45,855 nt of DNA from an uncultured Clostridia bacterium (GTDB lineage: Bacteria; Bacillota; Clostridia; Oscillospirales; Acutalibacteraceae): contig CALWRP010000032.1 in the NCBI GenBank assembly GCA_944383955.1, positions 1 through 45,855 on the forward strand, given 5' to 3'. Positions 16,689 to 27,854 of this stretch are shown piece after piece (the stretch's first letter is position 1; each line of letters starts with the position of its first letter). The notes under the pieces are model-generated. The model was given only the letters and a program-made list of their open reading frames with translations. It did no database searches and was not told the DNA's origin. A program made the translations under genes and the position numbers.

Positions 16689-16874
16689 GATCATTCTCCC
16701 AAAATCTTATTTTCCGGATGATACGACGATCTACGACCGCAAAATCGCCGTATTTTCGAGATTTTGCCGAATGATTTGAAGGAAAGATAGCATTTTCCTT
16801 CATTATGAACGCTCCGAAGCAAGAAAGGGGCGGCCCGGTGCGGCTTTTTCCCGCCTCCCCTTCATTTTTCTGTC

Positions 16875-16902
16875 ACCAAATCACGGGCGGGAAGATAGTA
16901 TG
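16875..16902 (+). promoter_or_regulatory. Possible sigma-K-like promoter before the small membrane protein gene
   Basis: AC (16875-16876), 17 bp, then GATAGTATG (16894-16902), compared with the Bacillus sigma-K pattern AC-N17-CATAnnnTA. The first and last -10 bases deviate. No sigma-A promoter is evident in this strand here. Weak evidence. Confidence 0.25.
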
Positions 16903-16930
16903 GAAGCAGAAGGAGAGGCGGTGAGAGGTG

Positions 16931-17077
16931 ATGAGAGGCGGACGGTGCTGCAGGGCGCCCTGCGTTATCGCGTTTGGAATCGGCCTGATGATCTCGTGCT
17001 TCTGCCCGAGCGGCCTGCTGTTCTTTCTGATCTCCGCCATCCTGATTTGGCTGGGCTGCTGCCTCATTCGCCGCTGA
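16931..17077 (+). CDS. 48-residue Cys-rich hydrophobic membrane protein, unrecognised
   Basis: A short basic, Cys-containing N-terminus (MRGGRCCRAPC), then two adjoining hydrophobic stretches (VIAFGIGLMISCF, GLLFFLISAILIWLGCCLI) separated by CPSG, ending IRR. It has seven cysteines in 48 residues and could form a re-entrant hairpin or one long membrane helix. A GGAGAGG SD lies about 12 bases before the ATG. It ends 39 bp before spoVM on the same strand and ahead of the same terminator, so both are probably on one transcript. This suggests, but does not prove, a role at the forespore membrane. It is too short for most gene callers. Confidence 0.6.
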   Translation: MRGGRCCRAPCVIAFGIGLMISCFCPSGLLFFLISAILIWLGCCLIRR

Positions 17078-17116
17078 CCCGCGCCGACATATCTCAGGAA
17101 AGGCTGGTACATCGTG

Positions 17117-17200
17117 ATGAAGGTTGTCGTCGTCAGAAGCTCCCGGTTCCTCGGATTTTTCCTGCGCAGAATGTTCCATATCCGGCGCAATGAGCTTTGA
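17117..17200 (+). CDS. spoVM: SpoVM, tiny amphipathic spore-coat anchoring protein
   Basis: A 27-residue peptide, MKVVVVRSSRFLGFFLRRM followed by HIRRNEL. Bacillus SpoVM (26 residues) begins MKFYTIKLPKFLGGIVRAM; the ungapped alignment keeps Met1, Lys2, Phe11, Leu12, Gly13, Arg17 and Met19 and the basic residues at 7 and 10. In Bacillus this helix lies flat on the convex outer forespore membrane and recruits SpoIVA. spoIVA is the second gene downstream, supporting the call. The Bacillus helix-breaking Pro9, needed for proper localisation there, is Ser here. Start at ATG 17117 (a GTG at 17114 is in frame) after AGGAAAGG. A strong terminator follows directly. Confidence 0.82.
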   Translation: MKVVVVRSSRFLGFFLRRMFHIRRNEL

Positions 17201-17205
17201 GCAGC

Positions 17206-17242
17206 GCCCCGCCGCGCATTTTTTGTGCGCGGCGGGGCTTTT
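17206..17242 (+). terminator. Terminator after spoVM
   Basis: A 13-bp perfect stem gccccgccgcgca/tgcgcggcggggc with a T-rich loop, followed by TTTT. It separates the small-gene transcript (48-residue protein and spoVM) from sipL-spoIVA. Confidence 0.9.
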
Positions 17243-17305: not shown

Positions 17306-18841
17306 ATGGACTACACGGCGCAACGAAATCCGCTCAGCGTCATCGACCTGCTCTATGACGGGTGCCAGGAGCAGTCGGTCGACCTTGATATCTCGCTCCC
17401 CGACTACTGCCCCGACATTCAGAAAATCCTCAAGTGCCAGGTCTATCCGCGGATTCTCGACCGCAATCTCTCCGGCGAGCGGCTGGAGATCGGCGGCACG
17501 TACACGGTGAAGGTGCTCTATCTCGACGCCGAGAGCGGCTGCGTCCGCTGCTGCGAGAGCAGCGCGCCCTTCTCCTGCGTGATGCCGCTCAAGAAGACGA
17601 TCGAGCGCGGCAAGGTCAAGGCCTTTGCGCGGGTGGAGTACATCAACTGCCGCGCGGCAAGCTCGAGGCGGCTCGACGTGCACGGCTCCTTCTCCGTCTG
17701 CGCCCGCGTGTACGGCCGCACAGACTGCGAGGCCGTCTGCTCCATTTTGGGAGACGACATCGAGCAGCGCTCCCGCGAGGTGCCCTACAGCCGCATGTCC
17801 TCCTTCTGCGTGCAGGGCTTCCATGTGGAGGAGGTGCTCGAGCTGCCCGCCAGCAAGCCGGAGGCCGAAACCCTTCTTTACAGCGGGGCCGTCGTCAACC
17901 TGCAGGACTATAAGGTGATCCAGAACAAGCTCATGGTCAAGGGAGACGTCACCCTGCACCTGCTCTATGCCGCCGTGGAGAACGCCTCTCTGGAGACGAT
18001 GGAGTATTCGATTCCCTTCACGCAGATGCTCGACTGTGAGGGCATCTCAGAGGAGGACCGCAGTGACGTGCGCCTCTCTGTGGTTGGGACGGACGTGCAG
18101 ATCAAAAACGACTATTCCGGCGGCAAGGTCTTTTTCGACGCCCAGATCCGCCTGTGCGCCGACGTGACCGCCTACCAGAACAGGCAGACGGTCGTCGTCT
18201 CCGACGCCTACTCGAGAAAATATGAGATGACGCTCGAATACCAGCAGAAGGCCGTGGAGGAGCTGATGGAGATCTTCGGCGACAGCATGGTGGCAAAGGC
18301 CGTCTTCCCGCTGGAGCAGGAGGTCTCCCGCGTCATCGACGTCTGGAGCGAGCTGTGCTCTGTCTCCCCCGCCCGCGAGGAGAGCGGCCTGGCGCTCGAC
18401 GGCAAATTCAGCGTCTGCATGCTGGCGGTGGGCGCGGACGGCAAGCCGTTTTACTGGGAGCGCGTCTCCGATTTTCAGTATAAGCGGCCCTTCGCCGGAG
18501 AGGGCGAGCTGCGCTGCGACCCCGACGCCAGCCTGGCCGCGATGAGCTACCGGCTGACAGGCAGCGAGCTGGAGGTCAAGGCGGAGATCGCCGTGTGCGG
18601 CTCTGTGTTTGCCAAGCGCAGCTGCCGCATGGTGGAGGCGGCCCACGCCGACGAGACAAAGCCCAGGGAGCGCGACAGCTCCGCCGCCCTCATCCTCTAC
18701 TACGCGGAGCCCGGCGAGGCGCTCTGGGATATCGCGCGCTGCTACTGCACCTCCATGGAGGCCATTCAGCGCGAGAACGATCTGGAATGCGAAAAGATGG
18801 AAACCAAGGGAATGCTTCTGATTCCCATGCAGTCCAATTGA
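17306..18841 (+). CDS. sipL: SipL-like SPOCS (DUF3794) and LysM protein, SpoIVA-interacting coat morphogenesis factor
   Basis: A 511-residue soluble protein. The first ~150 residues and the middle form beta-rich DUF3794/SPOCS repeats (VDLDISLPDYCPDIQKIL; VEEVLELPASKPEAETLL; VNLQDYKVIQNKLMVKGDV). The last 50 residues are a LysM domain (YYAEPGEALWDIARCYCTS...NDLE...KGMLLIPM). This architecture matches C. difficile SipL, which binds SpoIVA through its LysM domain and tethers the coat in the mother cell. spoIVA starts 13 bp downstream, supporting the assignment. SD GGGAGGATG precedes the ATG. Other SPOCS/LysM proteins of unknown role exist, so the symbol is by architecture and context. Confidence 0.8.
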   Translation: MDYTAQRNPLSVIDLLYDGCQEQSVDLDISLPDYCPDIQKILKCQVYPRILDRNLSGERLEIGGTYTVKVLYLDAESGCVRCCESSAPFSCVMPLKKTIERGKVKAFARVEYINCRAASSRRLDVHGSFSVCARVYGRTDCEAVCSILGDDIEQRSREVPYSRMSSFCVQGFHVEEVLELPASKPEAETLLYSGAVVNLQDYKVIQNKLMVKGDVTLHLLYAAVENASLETMEYSIPFTQMLDCEGISEEDRSDVRLSVVGTDVQIKNDYSGGKVFFDAQIRLCADVTAYQNRQTVVVSDAYSRKYEMTLEYQQKAVEELMEIFGDSMVAKAVFPLEQEVSRVIDVWSELCSVSPAREESGLALDGKFSVCMLAVGADGKPFYWERVSDFQYKRPFAGEGELRCDPDASLAAMSYRLTGSELEVKAEIAVCGSVFAKRSCRMVEAAHADETKPRERDSSAALILYYAEPGEALWDIARCYCTSMEAIQRENDLECEKMETKGMLLIPMQSN

Positions 18842-20378: not shown

Positions 20379-21050
20379 TCAGTTGTCGCGGGAGACCGCG
20401 TCGGGATCCGGCGTGCAGAGCACGAGGGCGAGGCCGCTGTGCACCGTCACCGAGCAGGGCGTCTCCTCCGCCACGTTGCTCACGCCCATCGGCAGGGAGG
20501 AGAGATCGGAGAAGAGCTCGCCGCCGTCGAGCGGATAGCGCATGCCGGTATAGCTGACGCGGCACACGCTGCAGGCAAACGGGAACACGGAGACGGTCGT
20601 CCCCACCGCGCAGGAAAAGCTGCGCGTCTCCCCCTCTCCCACGAGGCAGGCCTCCTCCCCGTTTCCGAAGAGCACAGCCTCGCAGCCGAGGGCGTGCAGG
20701 CGGTGCAGCACACAGAGGTTGGCATAGGAGTGATCGAGCCGCCCGCCGAGGCCGCAGGCCAGCAGAAAGCGGCGGCAGCCCCGCTCAAGGCCGGCGTTCA
20801 CGGCCGCGAGCATGTCGGTATCGTCCTTTCGCGGGTTCAGCGGCACGACAGGCAGATCCGCCGGCGGCTCGCCCTGGAACGAGTCGAAGTCGCCCACGAC
20901 GAGATCCGGCCTGATGCCGCACTGCTGCGCCCGGCGCAGGCCGCCGTCCGCGCAGACGGTGAAGAGCCCGGGCCGGTACAGCCGCCGCAGCGACTGCGGA
21001 TCCCGCAGGGGGGCGGCCCCGATGACAAGGCACGTTTTCACTTCTTCCAT
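20379..21050 (-). CDS. thiN: Thiamine pyrophosphokinase
   Basis: Transfers pyrophosphate from ATP to thiamine, giving thiamine diphosphate. It has 223 residues. The catalytic-domain motifs are in order: ADGG (34-37), GDFDS (53-57), KDDTD (75-79) and GGRLDH (102-107), followed by the C-terminal thiamine-binding beta-domain ending in a Val/Leu-rich strand. The ATG at 21050 lies in the last 13 bases of rsgA, after AAGGATTGGAAGGA. It is the last gene of the yicC-to-thiN superoperon. Bacillus places rpe between rsgA and thiN; here rpe is absent. Confidence 0.93.
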   Translation of the reverse strand: MEEVKTCLVIGAAPLRDPQSLRRLYRPGLFTVCADGGLRRAQQCGIRPDLVVGDFDSFQGEPPADLPVVPLNPRKDDTDMLAAVNAGLERGCRRFLLACGLGGRLDHSYANLCVLHRLHALGCEAVLFGNGEEACLVGEGETRSFSCAVGTTVSVFPFACSVCRVSYTGMRYPLDGGELFSDLSSLPMGVSNVAEETPCSVTVHSGLALVLCTPDPDAVSRDN

Positions 21051-21925
21051 TCCTTCCAATCCTTGACCTCCTGATACAGCGCCGCATAGCTCTCGTGGCG
21101 GGAGCGGCTGATCTTCCCCTCCCGCACCGCCTCGAGGACGGCGCAGCCCTTCTCGCACGTGTGGGAGCACGACGGGAACCGGCACTGGTCGAGAAAGGGG
21201 ACGAACTCGCGGAAGCAATAGGGCAGCTGCTCCTTGCGCACCACGTCGTAGCGCTCCATCTGGATGGCGGAGAAGCCGGGCGTGTCCGCCACATAGCCGC
21301 CGCCCTCGAGCGGGAACAGCTCCACCTGGCGCGTGGTGTGGCGGCCGCGGCCGAGCTTGCGGCTGATCTCCCCCGTTTCGAGCCCGAGGCGGGGATCGAT
21401 CCGGTTGAGCAGCGTGGACTTGCCCACGCCGGAGTTCCCGGTGAAGGCCGTCACCTTCCCGCGCAGAAGGCTCTTCACCCGCTCCACGCCCTCGCCCGTC
21501 GCAGAGGAGACGAGAATCACCGGAAAGCCGATCGGCTCGTAGATCTCGCGCAGCCACTCGGCCTGCTCGAGGTCGATCTTGGAGATCACCAGCACCGGCT
21601 CGATCCCCTTGTCCTCCGCCGCCGCGATGATCTTGTCGATGACGAGCGTGCTCGGAGCCGGGTCGCACGTGGCCGCCACCAGGACAAGCTGGTCGAGGTT
21701 CGCCATCGGCGGGCGGATGAGGGAGTTTTTCCGCGGCAGAATCTCCGCTATCACGGGAGACTGGTTTTCCTCCAGCTGAAGCCTGACGCGGTCGCCCGCC
21801 AGGGGGGTGATGGCGTTTTTGCGGAAGACGCCCCTGGCCCTGCATTCATAGACGGCGTCGCCCGCCTGCACGTAGTAGAAGCCGCCGATCCCCTTGAGGA
21901 TCAGCCCGATCCGTTCCTGCTCCAT
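21038..21925 (-). CDS. rsgA: Small ribosomal subunit biogenesis GTPase RsgA
   Basis: Circularly permuted GTPase acting in 30S maturation. It has 295 residues: an N-terminal OB-fold (to about 65), G4 as SKID (115-118, often NKxD), G1 GNSGVGKST (163-171), G3 DTPG (214-217) and a C-terminal zinc site (Cys248, Cys253, His255, Cys261). The ATG at 21925 is one base from the prkC stop; only a weak GGACG SD is seen, so translation is probably coupled. Longer in-frame sequence upstream overlaps prkC and is not coding. Confidence 0.95.
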   Translation of the reverse strand: MEQERIGLILKGIGGFYYVQAGDAVYECRARGVFRKNAITPLAGDRVRLQLEENQSPVIAEILPRKNSLIRPPMANLDQLVLVAATCDPAPSTLVIDKIIAAAEDKGIEPVLVISKIDLEQAEWLREIYEPIGFPVILVSSATGEGVERVKSLLRGKVTAFTGNSGVGKSTLLNRIDPRLGLETGEISRKLGRGRHTTRQVELFPLEGGGYVADTPGFSAIQMERYDVVRKEQLPYCFREFVPFLDQCRFPSCSHTCEKGCAVLEAVREGKISRSRHESYAALYQEVKDWKEWKK

Positions 21926-21926
21926 C

Positions 21927-23984
21927 TCAGTCGTCCGAGGGCGTGATGGGCACGAGCGGCTCCGGCTCGCTGACGAACGGATCCTCGGAAACGGGAGGTT
22001 CCGAAGCAGGAGGCTCCGAGGTGACGTCGACAAAGAGGTACGTCTCCTTGAGCAGAACCTCTCCTGTGTCAAAATTGAGCGTGTAGACACGGTACTTCAT
22101 CCCGTTGAGCTCCACCGTCAGCTCCTGCTGCTGCGTGCCGCTGAAGGAGAGCGTGTAGGTGCCGCCGTACATCGGGTTCACGACGGCCTCCTTGACAAGG
22201 GTGCCATCGATATACGCCTTGAGCGAAAGATCGTAGGATACATCGGACGGCAGCTCCACGGCGACGTCGAGCTCCTTCTCGCTCGTCTTGCCGGAGCTGT
22301 ACGTGAGGTCGACCTTGCTGCCCTTCTCCACCTTCATGCCCGGCAGCGGGGAGACGTCGACCACAATGCCCTCGTCCTCGCCCGTATCGTCGCGCGGGGT
22401 GGTGGTGCCCACGGAGAGGCCGGCCTCCACGAGAAGCTGGCGCGCCGTGTCAAGATCCACGCCGATGATGTTCGAGGGCACCGTCACCGTCGTGTCGGCG
22501 GGGCCGCTGCTCAGGTAGACCGTGACGACGGCCCCCTTGGCGATGGAGGAGTGCGCGGCAGGGTCGGTGCGGATGACCTTGCCCTCCTCGACGGTGTCGT
22601 CGGAGATCTCGACAAACTGGGCGTCGAGATTGCTGCTCTTGAGCACGGACTGCGCGTCCGCGCGGGAGTAGGAGGTCACGTCGGGCACCTCCACCATCTC
22701 GCCGCCGGCGTTGACATAGAGCGTCACCGTGGTGCCCACGCGCACGTTGATGTTGCCGGAGGGCTTCTGATCCATAATCTGGCCGATCGCCTCGTCGCCC
22801 GCGCTCTGGATCTCCTCCTTCTCGAAGACGATCTTGCCGGCGTATTTTTCATCGTTGACGACGTCGTTGTACATCTGGCCCACGAGGTCCTCGAGATAGA
22901 ACTCCGTGACCTCCTCCGTCTCGCAGCTGCGCAGCACGGTGGACACGCCGAGCGCGACCGCCACAATGAGGAAGGCGGCGAGGATGCCGGTGATGATCAG
23001 GGGCGCCACGCTCTTCTTCTTGCGCTTTTCCTCAACCTCCTCATACTCGTAGTTGTCGTTGTACACGGGAGGCTCGGAGCTCTTGACGGTGTTGATGGCG
23101 TCGATATACTTGGTCGGCTTCTCGTCGACGAAATACTTGTACTGGAAGCTGATGCTCGGGTTGCGGCGGAATTCCTCGATGTCGCGCAGCATCTCGGAGG
23201 CGGACTGGTAGCGCTGGGCCGGGTCCTTCTGCATGGCCTTCATGGTGATCTCCTCAAGGCCCTCCGGCAGCGAGGGGTTGATCTCGCGCGGCGGCTTCGG
23301 ATCGGCCTGCAGCTGCATAATCGCCACAGAGACGGCGTTGTCGGCCTCGAACGGCAGGCGGCCGGTGATCATCTCGTAGAGCATGACGCCCACGGAATAG
23401 ATGTCGGCCTTCCCGTCCGTCAGATCTCCGCGGGCCTGCTCGGGCGCGATATAGTGCACCGAGCCGATTGTCTTGCCCGTCATGGTGCGCGTCTCGCTGC
23501 GGGAGAAGCGGGCGATGCCGAAATCCGTCACCTTGATGGTGCCGTCCTGCAGAAGCATGATGTTCTGGGGCTTGATATCGCGGTGCACAATCCCCTTCTC
23601 ATGCGCGTGCTGAAGGGCGCGCAGGATCTGAATTGTGAAATGGATGGCCTCCTTCCACTTCACCTCCCGCTGCTGGCTCAGGTAATCCTTGAGCGTGATG
23701 CCGTCGATATACTCCTCCACAATGTACTGGATGCGGTCGCCGAAGCTGACGTCGTACACCTTCACGATATTCGGATGCGACAGCACGGCGATCGCCTTCG
23801 ACTCATTCTTGAAGCGGCGGATGAACTCCTCGTTGCCGAGATACTCGTCCTTGAGGATCTTGATGGCCACCGTGCGGTCGTCAATGAGATCGTGCGCGCG
23901 GTAGACGTTCGCCATGCCGCCGACGCCGATCAGCTCATGAATCTCATAACGGCCGTCAAGCCGCTTTCCGGTATATTTATCCAA
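21927..23984 (-). CDS. prkC: PASTA-domain Ser/Thr protein kinase, PrkC/Stk type
   Basis: A 685-residue membrane kinase sensing cell-wall fragments. The kinase domain (about 13-275) has the glycine loop IGVGGMANV, Lys42, HRDIKPQN with catalytic Asp136, DFG 154-156 and an activation loop rich in Ser/Thr. A juxtamembrane basic stretch and one membrane helix (about 325-350) follow. Outside lie three PASTA repeats (about 360-427, 431-500, 503-572) and a further extracellular domain with a Pro/Glu/Ser-rich tail. The start is TTG at 23982-23984 with SD GGGAG. It is paired with the phosphatase gene 24 bp upstream, the universal Firmicute arrangement. In Bacillus PrkC also triggers spore germination by muropeptides. 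Confidence 0.96.
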   Translation of the reverse strand: MDKYTGKRLDGRYEIHELIGVGGMANVYRAHDLIDDRTVAIKILKDEYLGNEEFIRRFKNESKAIAVLSHPNIVKVYDVSFGDRIQYIVEEYIDGITLKDYLSQQREVKWKEAIHFTIQILRALQHAHEKGIVHRDIKPQNIMLLQDGTIKVTDFGIARFSRSETRTMTGKTIGSVHYIAPEQARGDLTDGKADIYSVGVMLYEMITGRLPFEADNAVSVAIMQLQADPKPPREINPSLPEGLEEITMKAMQKDPAQRYQSASEMLRDIEEFRRNPSISFQYKYFVDEKPTKYIDAINTVKSSEPPVYNDNYEYEEVEEKRKKKSVAPLIITGILAAFLIVAVALGVSTVLRSCETEEVTEFYLEDLVGQMYNDVVNDEKYAGKIVFEKEEIQSAGDEAIGQIMDQKPSGNINVRVGTTVTLYVNAGGEMVEVPDVTSYSRADAQSVLKSSNLDAQFVEISDDTVEEGKVIRTDPAAHSSIAKGAVVTVYLSSGPADTTVTVPSNIIGVDLDTARQLLVEAGLSVGTTTPRDDTGEDEGIVVDVSPLPGMKVEKGSKVDLTYSSGKTSEKELDVAVELPSDVSYDLSLKAYIDGTLVKEAVVNPMYGGTYTLSFSGTQQQELTVELNGMKYRVYTLNFDTGEVLLKETYLFVDVTSEPPASEPPVSEDPFVSEPEPLVPITPSDD

Positions 23985-24008
23985 TACTCAGTCACTCCCA
24001 TCAGAAAG

Positions 24009-24734
24009 TCAGTATTTTGCGGCCGCAATTGTGACATTGTCGCCGCCGCCGCTGTCCTTTGCCATGGAAATCAGCACCTCGCAGCACTCCTGCGGAGGGC
24101 TCGCCATCAGCCTCAGGATGTCGCTCTCCTCCACATAATTGGTCAGGCCGTCGGTGCAGAGGAGCAGGGAATCGCCGGAATGGATTTCGAGCTCCTGGTA
24201 ATCGATTTCAACGGTCGGCTCCACGCCGAGCACGCGGGTGATGATGTTCTTCTGAGGATGCACCCTCGCCTCCTCCTCGGTGATGTCGCCGCGGTTGACG
24301 AGCTCCTGCACGATGGAGTGGTCCGTCGTCGCGCGAATCAGCCTGGAGCCGGACGCGAGGTAGGCCCGGCTGTCTCCCGCGTGCGCGAGATGCACCCGGC
24401 CGTCGCGCACCACCGCCGCGACCACCGTGGTTCCCATGCCGCGCAGAGAGAGCTCCGCCCTGGCCTTCTCGAAAATGGCCCGGTTGGCCTGGTAGATCGC
24501 CGTGATGATGATATTCTTGATCCCGTCGGAGGAAATATTCCTCCAATAGGTAGACTTGAGCTGCCAGGAGATTTTCTCCACGGCAATCTGGCTCGCCACG
24601 TTGCCGCCGTTCGCGCCGCCCATGCCGTCGCACACCACCAGCCAGGCGCCCTCGCCGGGCAGCTCGCCGCAGGCGAAGCGGTCCTGGTTGGAGCTGCGCA
24701 CCAGGCCGATGTCACTCTTCCCGTAAAGCTGCAT
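24009..24734 (-). CDS. stp: PP2C-type Ser/Thr phosphatase, Stp/PrpC
   Basis: A 241-residue manganese-dependent phosphatase that reverses PrkC phosphorylation. PPM motifs are visible: SDIGLVRSSNQDRF, the metal-binding VCDGMGGANGG, HAGDSRAYL, and the C-terminal GGDNVTI. SD GGAGGAAA precedes the ATG at 24734, which lies inside the last 23 bases of rlmN, so it is coupled to rlmN. It has no membrane segment, so it acts in the cytoplasm. Confidence 0.96.
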   Translation of the reverse strand: MQLYGKSDIGLVRSSNQDRFACGELPGEGAWLVVCDGMGGANGGNVASQIAVEKISWQLKSTYWRNISSDGIKNIIITAIYQANRAIFEKARAELSLRGMGTTVVAAVVRDGRVHLAHAGDSRAYLASGSRLIRATTDHSIVQELVNRGDITEEEARVHPQKNIITRVLGVEPTVEIDYQELEIHSGDSLLLCTDGLTNYVEESDILRLMASPPQECCEVLISMAKDSGGGDNVTIAAAKY

Positions 24735-25776
24735 AAGCTGTTTCCTCCTCTTCCACCCGGCGGCGAAGCTGGCCGCAGGATGCGTCGATATCGGAGCCGA
24801 GGGTCCGCCGCACGGTGGCGGTGATACCCTTCTTTTCCAAAATGGATATAAAACGCTTCTGCCGTTCGACAGAGCTTTTCCGGTAATGATTCCCCGTCAC
24901 ATCGTTGACGGGGATGAGGTTGACATGGCAGAGCATGCCCTCCAGGCGGGAGGCCAGCTCCCGCGCGCAGTCGTCGCTGTCGTTGACGCCGCTGATCATC
25001 GCGTACTCGAAGGAGATCCGCCGGCCCGTCGTCTCCGCGTAGGAGCGGCAGGCGTTCAGGAGCGCTTCCACGTTCCATTTGCGGTTGACAGGCATCGTCT
25101 GATTGCGGATTTCGTCGTTCGGCGCGTGGAGCGAGACGGAGAGCGTGAGCTGCAGCTTCTCCTGCGCCAGCCTTTCGATGCGGTCGACCAGGCCGCAGGT
25201 GGAGAGCGAGATGTGGCGCATGCCGATGTTCAGCCCCTCCTCGCAGGAGACGAGCTGCAGAAAGCGGAGCACGCTGTCGTAGTTGTCCAGCGGCTCGCCC
25301 ATACCCATCAGCACGATGTTCGAGATCCGCTCCCCGGCGTCCCTCTGCACCGCCTGCACCTCAGAGAGGATCTCCGACGCCGTGAGATTGCGCGAAAAGC
25401 CGCTCTTCCCCGTCGCGCAGAAGGTGCAGCCCATCCGGCAGCCCACCTGCGTGGAAATACAGATCGACAGCCCGTGATGGTAGCGCATCAGAACGCACTC
25501 CACGTGCTCGCCGTCGCGCAGGCGCAGCAGATATTTGACCGTCCCGTCCAGGCGGGAGACCTGCCGGCGCACGACCGCGGCGTCCGCTATGTAGTAGCGC
25601 TCCGCCAGCCTCGCGCGCAGCTCCCTGGGCAGGTTCGTCATCTCGTCGAAGGAGGAGACGCCCTGCTGCAGCCAGCGGAACACCTGCTTGGCGCGAAAGG
25701 CAGGCAGCCCCCACTCCCGGAACGCGGCCTGCAGCTCCCCGCATGTTTTCGATTTGATATCTTCGAGCAAATTCAT
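24712..25776 (-). CDS. rlmN: Dual-specificity 23S rRNA (A2503-C2)/tRNA (A37-C2) methyltransferase RlmN
   Basis: A 354-residue radical SAM methylase. The cluster cysteines are Cys113, Cys117 and Cys120 (CRMGCTFC); the C-terminal methyl-carrying cysteine is Cys334 (DASCGQL) and GMGEPLDNYD is the SAM-binding motif. No extra Cfr-type features were noticed, so I call RlmN rather than the resistance methylase Cfr. It lies between rsmB and stp, its normal place. Confidence 0.96.
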   Translation of the reverse strand: MNLLEDIKSKTCGELQAAFREWGLPAFRAKQVFRWLQQGVSSFDEMTNLPRELRARLAERYYIADAAVVRRQVSRLDGTVKYLLRLRDGEHVECVLMRYHHGLSICISTQVGCRMGCTFCATGKSGFSRNLTASEILSEVQAVQRDAGERISNIVLMGMGEPLDNYDSVLRFLQLVSCEEGLNIGMRHISLSTCGLVDRIERLAQEKLQLTLSVSLHAPNDEIRNQTMPVNRKWNVEALLNACRSYAETTGRRISFEYAMISGVNDSDDCARELASRLEGMLCHVNLIPVNDVTGNHYRKSSVERQKRFISILEKKGITATVRRTLGSDIDASCGQLRRRVEEEETAYAALREE

Positions 25777-25831
25777 CTTCCTTTATGCGTTTTCGATCCT
25801 CTTCCCGAAAGAGCCCGCAGCCCTGCGGCCT

Positions 25832-27148
25832 TCACGGCGCAGCCTTTTGAAAGCGGGAGAGAAAGAAGCCGTCCGTCCCGTGGACGGGAGGAAACAGCGT
25901 CAGCTGATGCTCCGGCTCCGAAATGGCGCGCTCCAGCCCCTGCGGGAGCCGCAGCGGCGCGGGGAGAAAATCGCGGTGCTCCTGCAGGAAGCGGTCCGCC
26001 ACCTCCCCGTTCTCCGCCGGAGACAGCGTGCACGTCGAATATAGCAGCGTCCCGCCCGGCTTCACAAGCCGGGACGCCTCACAGAGAATACGGTACTGCA
26101 AATCCGGCAGGCTGTCAAGTGTCGATTTCTCCTTATAGCGGATTTCCGGCTTGCGGCGGATGATGCCAAGGCCCGAGCACGGCGCGTCGCAGAGCACGCG
26201 GTCCGCCGGGGCCAGAGCCTCGCCGGGCGCCTCCGCGTCCCGCGCCGCCGCGCGGACGATGGTCAGCCCCAGGCGCTGCGCGCCGGAAGCAATCAGGCGC
26301 ACCTTGCCCTTATATTTGTCGAAGGCCAGAAGCTCGCCCTCGTTTTCCATCTCCTCGGCGATGGTGAACGACTTCCCGCCTGGGGCGGCGCAGACGTCGA
26401 TCACCCGCTCCCCCGGCCGTGCGCCGAGCGCGCAGGCCGCCAGCTGGGAGGAGAGATCCTGCACGTGGAACAGCCCCTCCCCGAACGACGAAAGCGCGGG
26501 GATCGAGCCGGGCTTTTCGAGGATCAGCGCGTGCGGGGATACTTCCGTGCCCCGGGAGGCGACGCCCTCGCCCGCAAGCCGCTCCCGCAGCGCGTCCCGC
26601 GTCGTCCGGCAGGTGTTCACCCGCACAAAGACGGGGGCCGGCTCCGCGAGGCTTTCGAGCAGCGAGGCCGTCAGCGCCTCCCCGTAGGCTGCGCGCCAGA
26701 GGCGGATCAGCCAGGCGGGGCAGGAACAGCGGACGCTGTCGTCCGGCCAGGAGAGGCTTTCCCGCCCGCGCAGCAGGCTGCGCAGCACCCCGTTGACGAA
26801 GCCGGAGGCCTTCCCCTGCCCCTGCGTCTTCGCGAGCTCCACGCTCTCGTTGACCGCGGCGGAATCGGGCACGCGGTCAAGAAAAAGCAGCTGATACGCG
26901 CCCAGCCGCAGAATCTCCAGCACCTTCGGCGAGAGCTGCGAAAGGCGCAGTCTGGAAAAGCGGGAGATCGCGTAGTCGAGCGTCAGCCGCCGCTCCAGCA
27001 CGCCGTAGAACAGCGTGCTGGCAAAGGAGGCGTCGCGGCCCGTGAGGCCGTGCGCGCGCAGGGTCTTGTCGAGGACAAGATTGGAGTAGCCCTCGTTGAC
27101 GTCGACCTGCAGCAGCGCCTCCAAGGCCGCAGTCCGTGCCTGATCCAT
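25832..27148 (-). CDS. rsmB: 16S rRNA (cytosine-967-C5)-methyltransferase RsmB
   Basis: A 438-residue protein: an N-terminal NusB-like helical RNA-binding domain (about 1-140) and a C-terminal Rossmann methylase. Key motifs are VCAAPGGKSF for SAM binding, DAPCSGLG with one active-site cysteine, and YSTCTLSP with the catalytic nucleophile. The start at 27148 has SD GGAGG and follows the yugP stop by 1 bp; an upstream in-frame ATG is inside yugP and is not supported. A 55-bp spacer precedes rlmN. Confidence 0.95.
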   Translation of the reverse strand: MDQARTAALEALLQVDVNEGYSNLVLDKTLRAHGLTGRDASFASTLFYGVLERRLTLDYAISRFSRLRLSQLSPKVLEILRLGAYQLLFLDRVPDSAAVNESVELAKTQGQGKASGFVNGVLRSLLRGRESLSWPDDSVRCSCPAWLIRLWRAAYGEALTASLLESLAEPAPVFVRVNTCRTTRDALRERLAGEGVASRGTEVSPHALILEKPGSIPALSSFGEGLFHVQDLSSQLAACALGARPGERVIDVCAAPGGKSFTIAEEMENEGELLAFDKYKGKVRLIASGAQRLGLTIVRAAARDAEAPGEALAPADRVLCDAPCSGLGIIRRKPEIRYKEKSTLDSLPDLQYRILCEASRLVKPGGTLLYSTCTLSPAENGEVADRFLQEHRDFLPAPLRLPQGLERAISEPEHQLTLFPPVHGTDGFFLSRFQKAAP

Positions 27149-27149
27149 C

Positions 27150-27854
27150 TCAGTCGCGCCTCCTGCGGCTGCCCGCAATCGCCAGCAGGCGCAGCAGCGT
27201 CATCAGCGAGGTGAAGGTCGCGGCCACATACGTCATCGCCGCCGCCCGCAGCACCTTGGCCGCGTCCTGCAGCTCGTTGGGATAGAGGATGCCCGCCTGG
27301 CCGAGGGCCTTGAGCGCCCGCGCGCTGGCGTTGAACTCCACCGGCAGCGTCACCAGCTGGAACAGCACCATCAGGCTGTACAGGCCGATGCCGATGAGCA
27401 CGACGAAGTCGTACTGCACCGGGAGCAGCAGGCCGATGAAGATGAGCGGCATCGAGAGCTGCGACCCGAAGTTGGTGATGGGCACCAGCGCCGAGCGCAG
27501 CTTGTTCGGCCAGTAGCCGACGGCGTGCTGAATCGCGTGCCCGGCCTCGTGCGCCGCCACGCCGACCGCGGCGATGCTCGCCACGCCGTAGACGGGCGAC
27601 GAGAGGCTGATCACCCCGGTGCGCGGGTTGAAATTGTCCGTCAGGCTGCCGGAAACGGCGCGGATGCTCACCTGCGGCACGGAGCCGAAGCGCAGCACGG
27701 CCTCCGCCGCGTCGCGTCCCGTCATGCCGCGGGCCGAGGAGACGCGGGAATACTTCGCGAAGGTCGATTTGACGCGGAACTGCGCGATCATGGAAAGAAT
27801 CAGCGCGGGCAGCATATAGACGAAATACGTGTAATCAAAATAATAGAATCCCAT
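27150..27854 (-). CDS. yugP: YugP-type membrane zinc metallopeptidase
   Basis: A 234-residue integral membrane protein of the Zn_peptidase_2 family. Zinc motif HEAGH (102-106) lies between hydrophobic segments (about 10-25, 85-100, 125-165 and 195-225); the later VEFNAS supplies a conserved acidic residue. Its substrate is unknown. SD AGGAGGAGG precedes the ATG at 27854. It lies between fmt and rsmB, a common place for it in Clostridia. Confidence 0.9.
   Translation of the reverse strand: MGFYYFDYTYFVYMLPALILSMIAQFRVKSTFAKYSRVSSARGMTGRDAAEAVLRFGSVPQVSIRAVSGSLTDNFNPRTGVISLSSPVYGVASIAAVGVAAHEAGHAIQHAVGYWPNKLRSALVPITNFGSQLSMPLIFIGLLLPVQYDFVVLIGIGLYSLMVLFQLVTLPVEFNASARALKALGQAGILYPNELQDAAKVLRAAAMTYVAATFTSLMTLLRLLAIAGSRRRRD

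Follow-up and report, generated by a model that had tools for sequence, protein, structure and literature searches.

An uncultured bacterium of the Acutalibacteraceae carries a 27-codon gene that encodes an orthologue of the sporulation peptide SpoVM in which the proline at position 9 is replaced by serine, and in one branch of this family the same position has changed repeatedly between proline and other residues. According to the legend of Fig. 1 in PMC5607322, Pro9 is the only completely conserved residue in an alignment of SpoVM from Bacilli and Clostridia, which bears out the original prediction that its absence is of note. In B. subtilis, as summarised in a review (PMC12004969), the P9A substitution produces a longer helix and loss of localisation, and variants in which proline was restored at positions 7–13 of P9A pointed to a flexible N-terminus. 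The titles and abstract openings searched, among which few subscription papers were covered, contained no account of a natural loss of Pro9, and the search turned up no measurement of helix structure or membrane behaviour for a SpoVM lacking it. We consider it probable, on the pattern of replacements, that the peptide is an ordinary SpoVM in which residues other than Pro9 provide the break between loop and helix.

The window, the whole 45,855-nucleotide stretch of DNA that was analysed, contains the open reading frame MKVVVVRSSRFLGFFLRRMFHIRRNEL, for which an in-frame GTG at 17114, one codon upstream of the ATG, is also a possible start. The peptide has the length of B. subtilis SpoVM and matches it without gaps at Met1, Lys2, Phe11, Leu12, Gly13, Arg17 and Met19, as had been predicted, but it carries Ser9 (codon TCC, in a Ser8-Ser9 pair) in place of Pro9, Phe14-Phe15 in place of Gly-Ile, Val6 in place of Ile6, and a different tail; the Ser9 and Phe-Phe assignments had been read correctly from the start. 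The NCBIfam model SpoVM_broad (NF033436) matched the peptide over profile positions 1–24 of 26 with an E value of 8.9e-7 and a score of 28.8 bits, for a cut-off set at 31, and with an E value of 2.8e-5 when run against the bacterium's own genome alone. A clostridial SpoVM model gave 2.7e-14 in a one-genome search, a value to be read with the window peptide itself included in the model. Among 97 genomes of relatives, own included, only 36 passed the NF033436 cut-off, indicating that it is strict for this family, and the sub-threshold score could account for a lack of annotation, should there be one. PMC3533761 describes SpoVM as a gene that annotation seldom picks up and does not settle whether some clostridia have distant versions.

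That score just below a curated cut-off is what could suggest a chance reading frame or a decayed SpoVM, a reading that is scarcely credible given the following results. Profile searches of the own genome (92.7% complete, 229 contigs) found no second, and hence no better, SpoVM. In the genus, five of six genomes, own included, have a SpoVM match, with none detected in the sixth (85% complete), and both the peptide and its place are conserved in these close relatives. The four congener loci that keep the peptide differ from the window at 6–12 of 54 nucleotides in codon positions 1 and 2 and at 10–12 of 27 in position 3, a third-position excess. The own genome also contains a match to the sporulation regulator Spo0A over its cut-off and a full-length sigma-G-like match of 423.8 bits, below the cut-off of 457. 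Reading frame, a profile match short of the curated cut-off, conservation in the genus and the neighbouring sipL and spoIVA together confirm the window ORF as a SpoVM orthologue, placed two genes before spoIVA as originally described (Table 1).

Table 1. Coordinates of spoVM and the features around it in the window.
Feature	Position	Strand	Basis
Candidate promoter of the small ORF-spoVM unit, TCACCA ... ATAGTATG	16873–16902	+	inference
ORF of 48 codons immediately before spoVM, for a small hydrophobic protein; GTG in frame at 16928	16931–17077	+	profile of relatives' ORFs
Likely ribosome-binding site of spoVM, AGGAAAGG	17096–17103	+	sequence; inference
spoVM, 27 aa, Ser at position 9 (Pro replaced); ATG at 17117, TGA ending at 17200	17117–17200	+	ORF, profile match, conservation in congeners
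Terminator-like inverted repeat between spoVM and sipL	17206–17238	+	14-pair stem and T run
sipL	17306–18841	+	Pfam PF12673 SipL, 9e-31
spoIVA, 492 aa	18855–20333	+	TIGR02836, 726 bits
thiN-like gene, first of the block thiN-rsgA-prkC-prpC-rlmN-rsmB	20379–21050	−	marker search

Signals around the gene are shared with its congeners, which have GAAAGG at the place corresponding to the likely ribosome-binding site and, judged by eye, inverted repeats at the same place after spoVM; in the stretch as a whole two terminator-like sites were found against 0.9 expected in shuffled sequences. The candidate promoter is kept, also by eye, in the four genus loci that reach that far, window included, and a mother-cell-type sigma factor would be a guess at its reader. 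The window shows the gene neighbourhood common to its relatives' spoVM. Loci long enough to carry every marker most often read rsmB-rlmN-prpC-prkC-rsgA-thiN-spoVM-sipL-spoIVA (22 loci), with thiN standing for the gene so labelled in Table 1, and the rsgA-thiN-spoVM arrangement of relatives resembles the Bacillus order. With the window's own proteins as markers, so that both counts are lower bounds, sipL begins no more than 900 nt behind spoVM and in the same orientation in 52 of 128 loci, and thiN or rsgA lies upstream of spoVM in 72 of 123. Positions 20379–27178 of the window hold the thiN-to-rsmB block inverted behind spoVM-sipL-spoIVA, a block that lies before spoVM in many relatives; the inversion was seen in all five genus loci, one of which reaches only to rlmN. 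The closest SpoIVA proteins, at 94% identity, place the window near Anaeromassilibacillus sp. An200 and Candidatus Caccousia avicola. The window SpoIVA has Gly486, a residue that has been tied to SpoVM binding in B. subtilis (PMC5607322).

Position 9 was surveyed across relatives. At E values up to 0.001 the profile found SpoVM in 261 of 298 genomes of the family, and at this threshold only B. subtilis matched among the control genomes; at E values up to 10 some match was obtained in 83 of 97 genomes, a count that includes noise, since six of 14 controls, five of them not Bacillus, matched as well. The family search was read among the matches listed, and the loci compared here are a part of the family's SpoVMs. 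From 280 scored loci we retained 206 distinct ones after removing duplicates sharing about 150 nt around spoVM, eight weak phylum hits (L190–L197), and peptides without an ATG, GTG or TTG start, outside 21–36 residues or below 18 bits. Position 9 is Pro in 166 of these, Ser in 25, Lys in seven, Thr in five, Asn in two and His in one, so that 40 lack Pro9; the 206 loci come mostly from the family and order. Outside the 206 are 15 more family loci, partly repeats, with Pro in L340 and L395–L403 and Ser in L351, L352 and L404–L406. At class level SpoVM was matched in 58 of 291 genomes, four of them in the window's family and a further one already among the loci read. The remaining 53, all SpoVMs of other class families, have Pro in 52 cases, in two of which an additional N-terminal residue displaces it; the last, L381 (MKIVVVKTSKFWGKILKAFFRI), has Ser. 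A phylum-wide sample gave matches, mostly weak, in 15 of 398 genomes at E values up to 0.01.

The rest of the peptide holds a conserved core. Lys2, Leu16, Arg17 and Phe20 are all present in the window SpoVM, never vary among the 38 insertion-free non-Pro peptides, and are kept in 150, 163, 148 and 154, respectively, of the 166 Pro9 peptides. Column counts leave out L305 and L308, which carry one inserted residue near position 9 and lack proline.

How often Pro9 changed was assessed on a 148-row tree of neighbouring genes, from which five of the 40 non-Pro loci (L062, L300, L072, L310 and L307) are absent for want of marker sequence. A single clade of 40 rows holds 34 of the 35 placed non-Pro rows together with six Pro9 rows; the non-Pro row outside it is the Asn9 row L301. 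Parsimony requires at least eight changes between Pro and non-Pro on this tree and at least seven on a 52-row tree, in which the Pro9 row L220 is placed differently. A constraint grouping all 34 non-Pro rows of the latter tree was rejected (p-AU 3.5e-7), showing that they do not form one clade, and so was one holding together the five Ser9 rows of the Caproiciproducens group (p-AU 2.6e-6), a group chosen after the tree had been seen. Position 9 has changed repeatedly, in a history that parsimony fits alike with several losses or with one loss followed by regains. Caproiciproducens and its relatives lie on the same tree branch as the window, and in this group Pro9 and Ser9 peptides adjoin: L085 and L079 share Ser9 with the window, whereas L273 and L126 keep Pro9, each of the latter having 23 of 26 residues identical to L085 and three different. 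The idea that Ser9 is the accident of one genome was rejected on these grounds, with 40 of 206 loci lacking Pro9 and the changes recurring on the tree.

The replacements are few in kind. Of the 40 non-Pro peptides, 39 have Ser, Thr or Asn at position 9 or Gly at position 10, a pattern noticed after the fact, and the fortieth, L308, has Gly at 11 following its insertion. Lys or His occupies position 9 in eight peptides, of which seven have Gly10 and the eighth is L308; one of the eight, L306, has proline at position 8. None of the 206 loci read has Ala, Leu, Arg or Gln at position 9, residues that a single base change in a Pro codon would give. Gly10 is present in 18 of 40 non-Pro9 and two of 166 Pro9 loci (Fisher p 5e-13); across seven independent pairs on the tree its association with non-Pro9 was not significant, 1.8 pairs on average pointing the same way and 5.2 showing no difference, and the same kind of test detected no association for Phe14, Gly13 or Gly14. 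The original prediction also took Phe14-Phe15 as the mark of an unusual peptide, a view we rejected, as Phe14 occurs in 49 and Phe14-Phe15 together in 36 of the 166 Pro9 SpoVMs. Ser, Thr and Asn cap the N-terminus of a helix well, and a retained helix break accounts for the replacement pattern (Ser, Thr or Asn at 9 or an adjacent Gly, and no Ala) no less well than the altered curvature recognition first proposed as one possibility.

A conserved gene for a small hydrophobic protein directly precedes spoVM. Among loci with at least 250 nt upstream of spoVM, an iterated profile found a small ORF ending within 200 nt upstream in 187 of 204 family and order loci and in 15 of 25 at class level. Applied to the remaining small ORFs of these loci, 6004 in number, the profile, which was iterated on upstream ORFs and whose matches hydrophobic composition may inflate, matched three, all in loci counted as misses and one on the other strand. 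In 21 aligned relatives Phe-Gly-x-Gly and one Pro are invariant. No Pfam or NCBIfam model matched the window protein or the 21 members over its cut-off; the weak matches include DUF6249 in ten of 21 members (best E 0.013). An AlphaFold model (pLDDT 70, pTM 0.38) predicts helices at residues 9–22 and 28–47 around a CFCPS turn. C. difficile resembles the window in its clostridial background with SipL and in having a small gene upstream, the 50-aa CD25622, co-transcribed with spoVM and described in PMC5607322 as unique to Peptostreptococcaceae; unlike the window, it stands in the alignment with completely conserved Pro9 and has its spoVM near rpmB. The small upstream gene, which adjoins spoVM and is named by no Pfam or NCBIfam model, is a candidate partner of SpoVM, though it is possible that the two are merely co-expressed. 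The two Asn9 loci, L300 and L301, are the only non-Pro9 loci without it.

The suggestion that a partner compensates for the missing proline has a conserved candidate to point to, but the small ORF is as frequent beside Pro9 SpoVMs (150 of 165 loci) as beside those without Pro9 (37 of 39 family and order loci), and so it offers no specific explanation of Pro9 loss. The stronger form of this idea, that a peptide without Pro9 no longer reads curvature and is placed by a partner such as the upstream protein, gains from the prevalence of the ORF in family, order, class and non-Pro9 loci and from its rarity elsewhere. It is very unlikely in view of the equal frequency beside Pro9, of the two loci without the ORF both being Asn9, and of an insertion, probably polar on spoVM, in C. 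difficile CD25622, a possible counterpart of the ORF, whose phenotype is like that of a spoVM insertion alone (PMC5607322). Relaxed constraint, the other explanation weighed, would hold that SpoIVA reaches the forespore of SipL-dependent species with little help from SpoVM, so that curvature sensing by SpoVM, and Pro9 with it, is no longer needed in this branch. It draws on C. difficile, which can mostly do without SpoVM, its SpoIVA still encasing the forespore in most cells when the peptide is missing (PMC5607322), and on the several changes at position 9 within one branch. We regard it as unlikely, since Pro9 is kept in nearly all SpoVMs of other class families and in most of the loci read, and the replacements are restricted in kind. 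At several key positions the non-Pro peptides vary no more than the Pro9 peptides do, a comparison that is weak because the non-Pro group is phylogenetically narrower.

The reading we prefer, that of an ordinary SpoVM with its break made by other residues, has the window peptide as the orthologue of SpoVM, the amphipathic mother-cell peptide by which SpoIVA is anchored to the forespore membrane. In one branch of the family position 9 would have become free to change; Pro was exchanged several times there, and Ser9 is one outcome. The loop-to-helix break would be made by an N-capping Ser, Thr or Asn at position 9 (Ser8-Ser9 in the window) or by Gly at 10. Presumably expressed in the mother cell and still sensing curvature, the Ser9 peptide would enter the membrane to a shallow depth, locate the forespore and bind SpoIVA.

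A broader reading, which we think unlikely, is that clostridial SpoVM may be half of a two-gene module with the small two-helix membrane protein, the module letting this branch dispense with Pro9 by moving the hinge to Ser, Thr or Asn caps, to Gly10 or to the partner; if true, the branch would hold naturally occurring variant forms of a curvature sensor. SpoVM is among the smallest curvature sensors to have been studied well; Pro9 serves as its hinge and has been described as its only invariant residue. The branch where that proline has changed recurrently, to N-cap residues or beside a glycine, offers ready variants with which to ask whether SpoVM needs the break itself or the proline.
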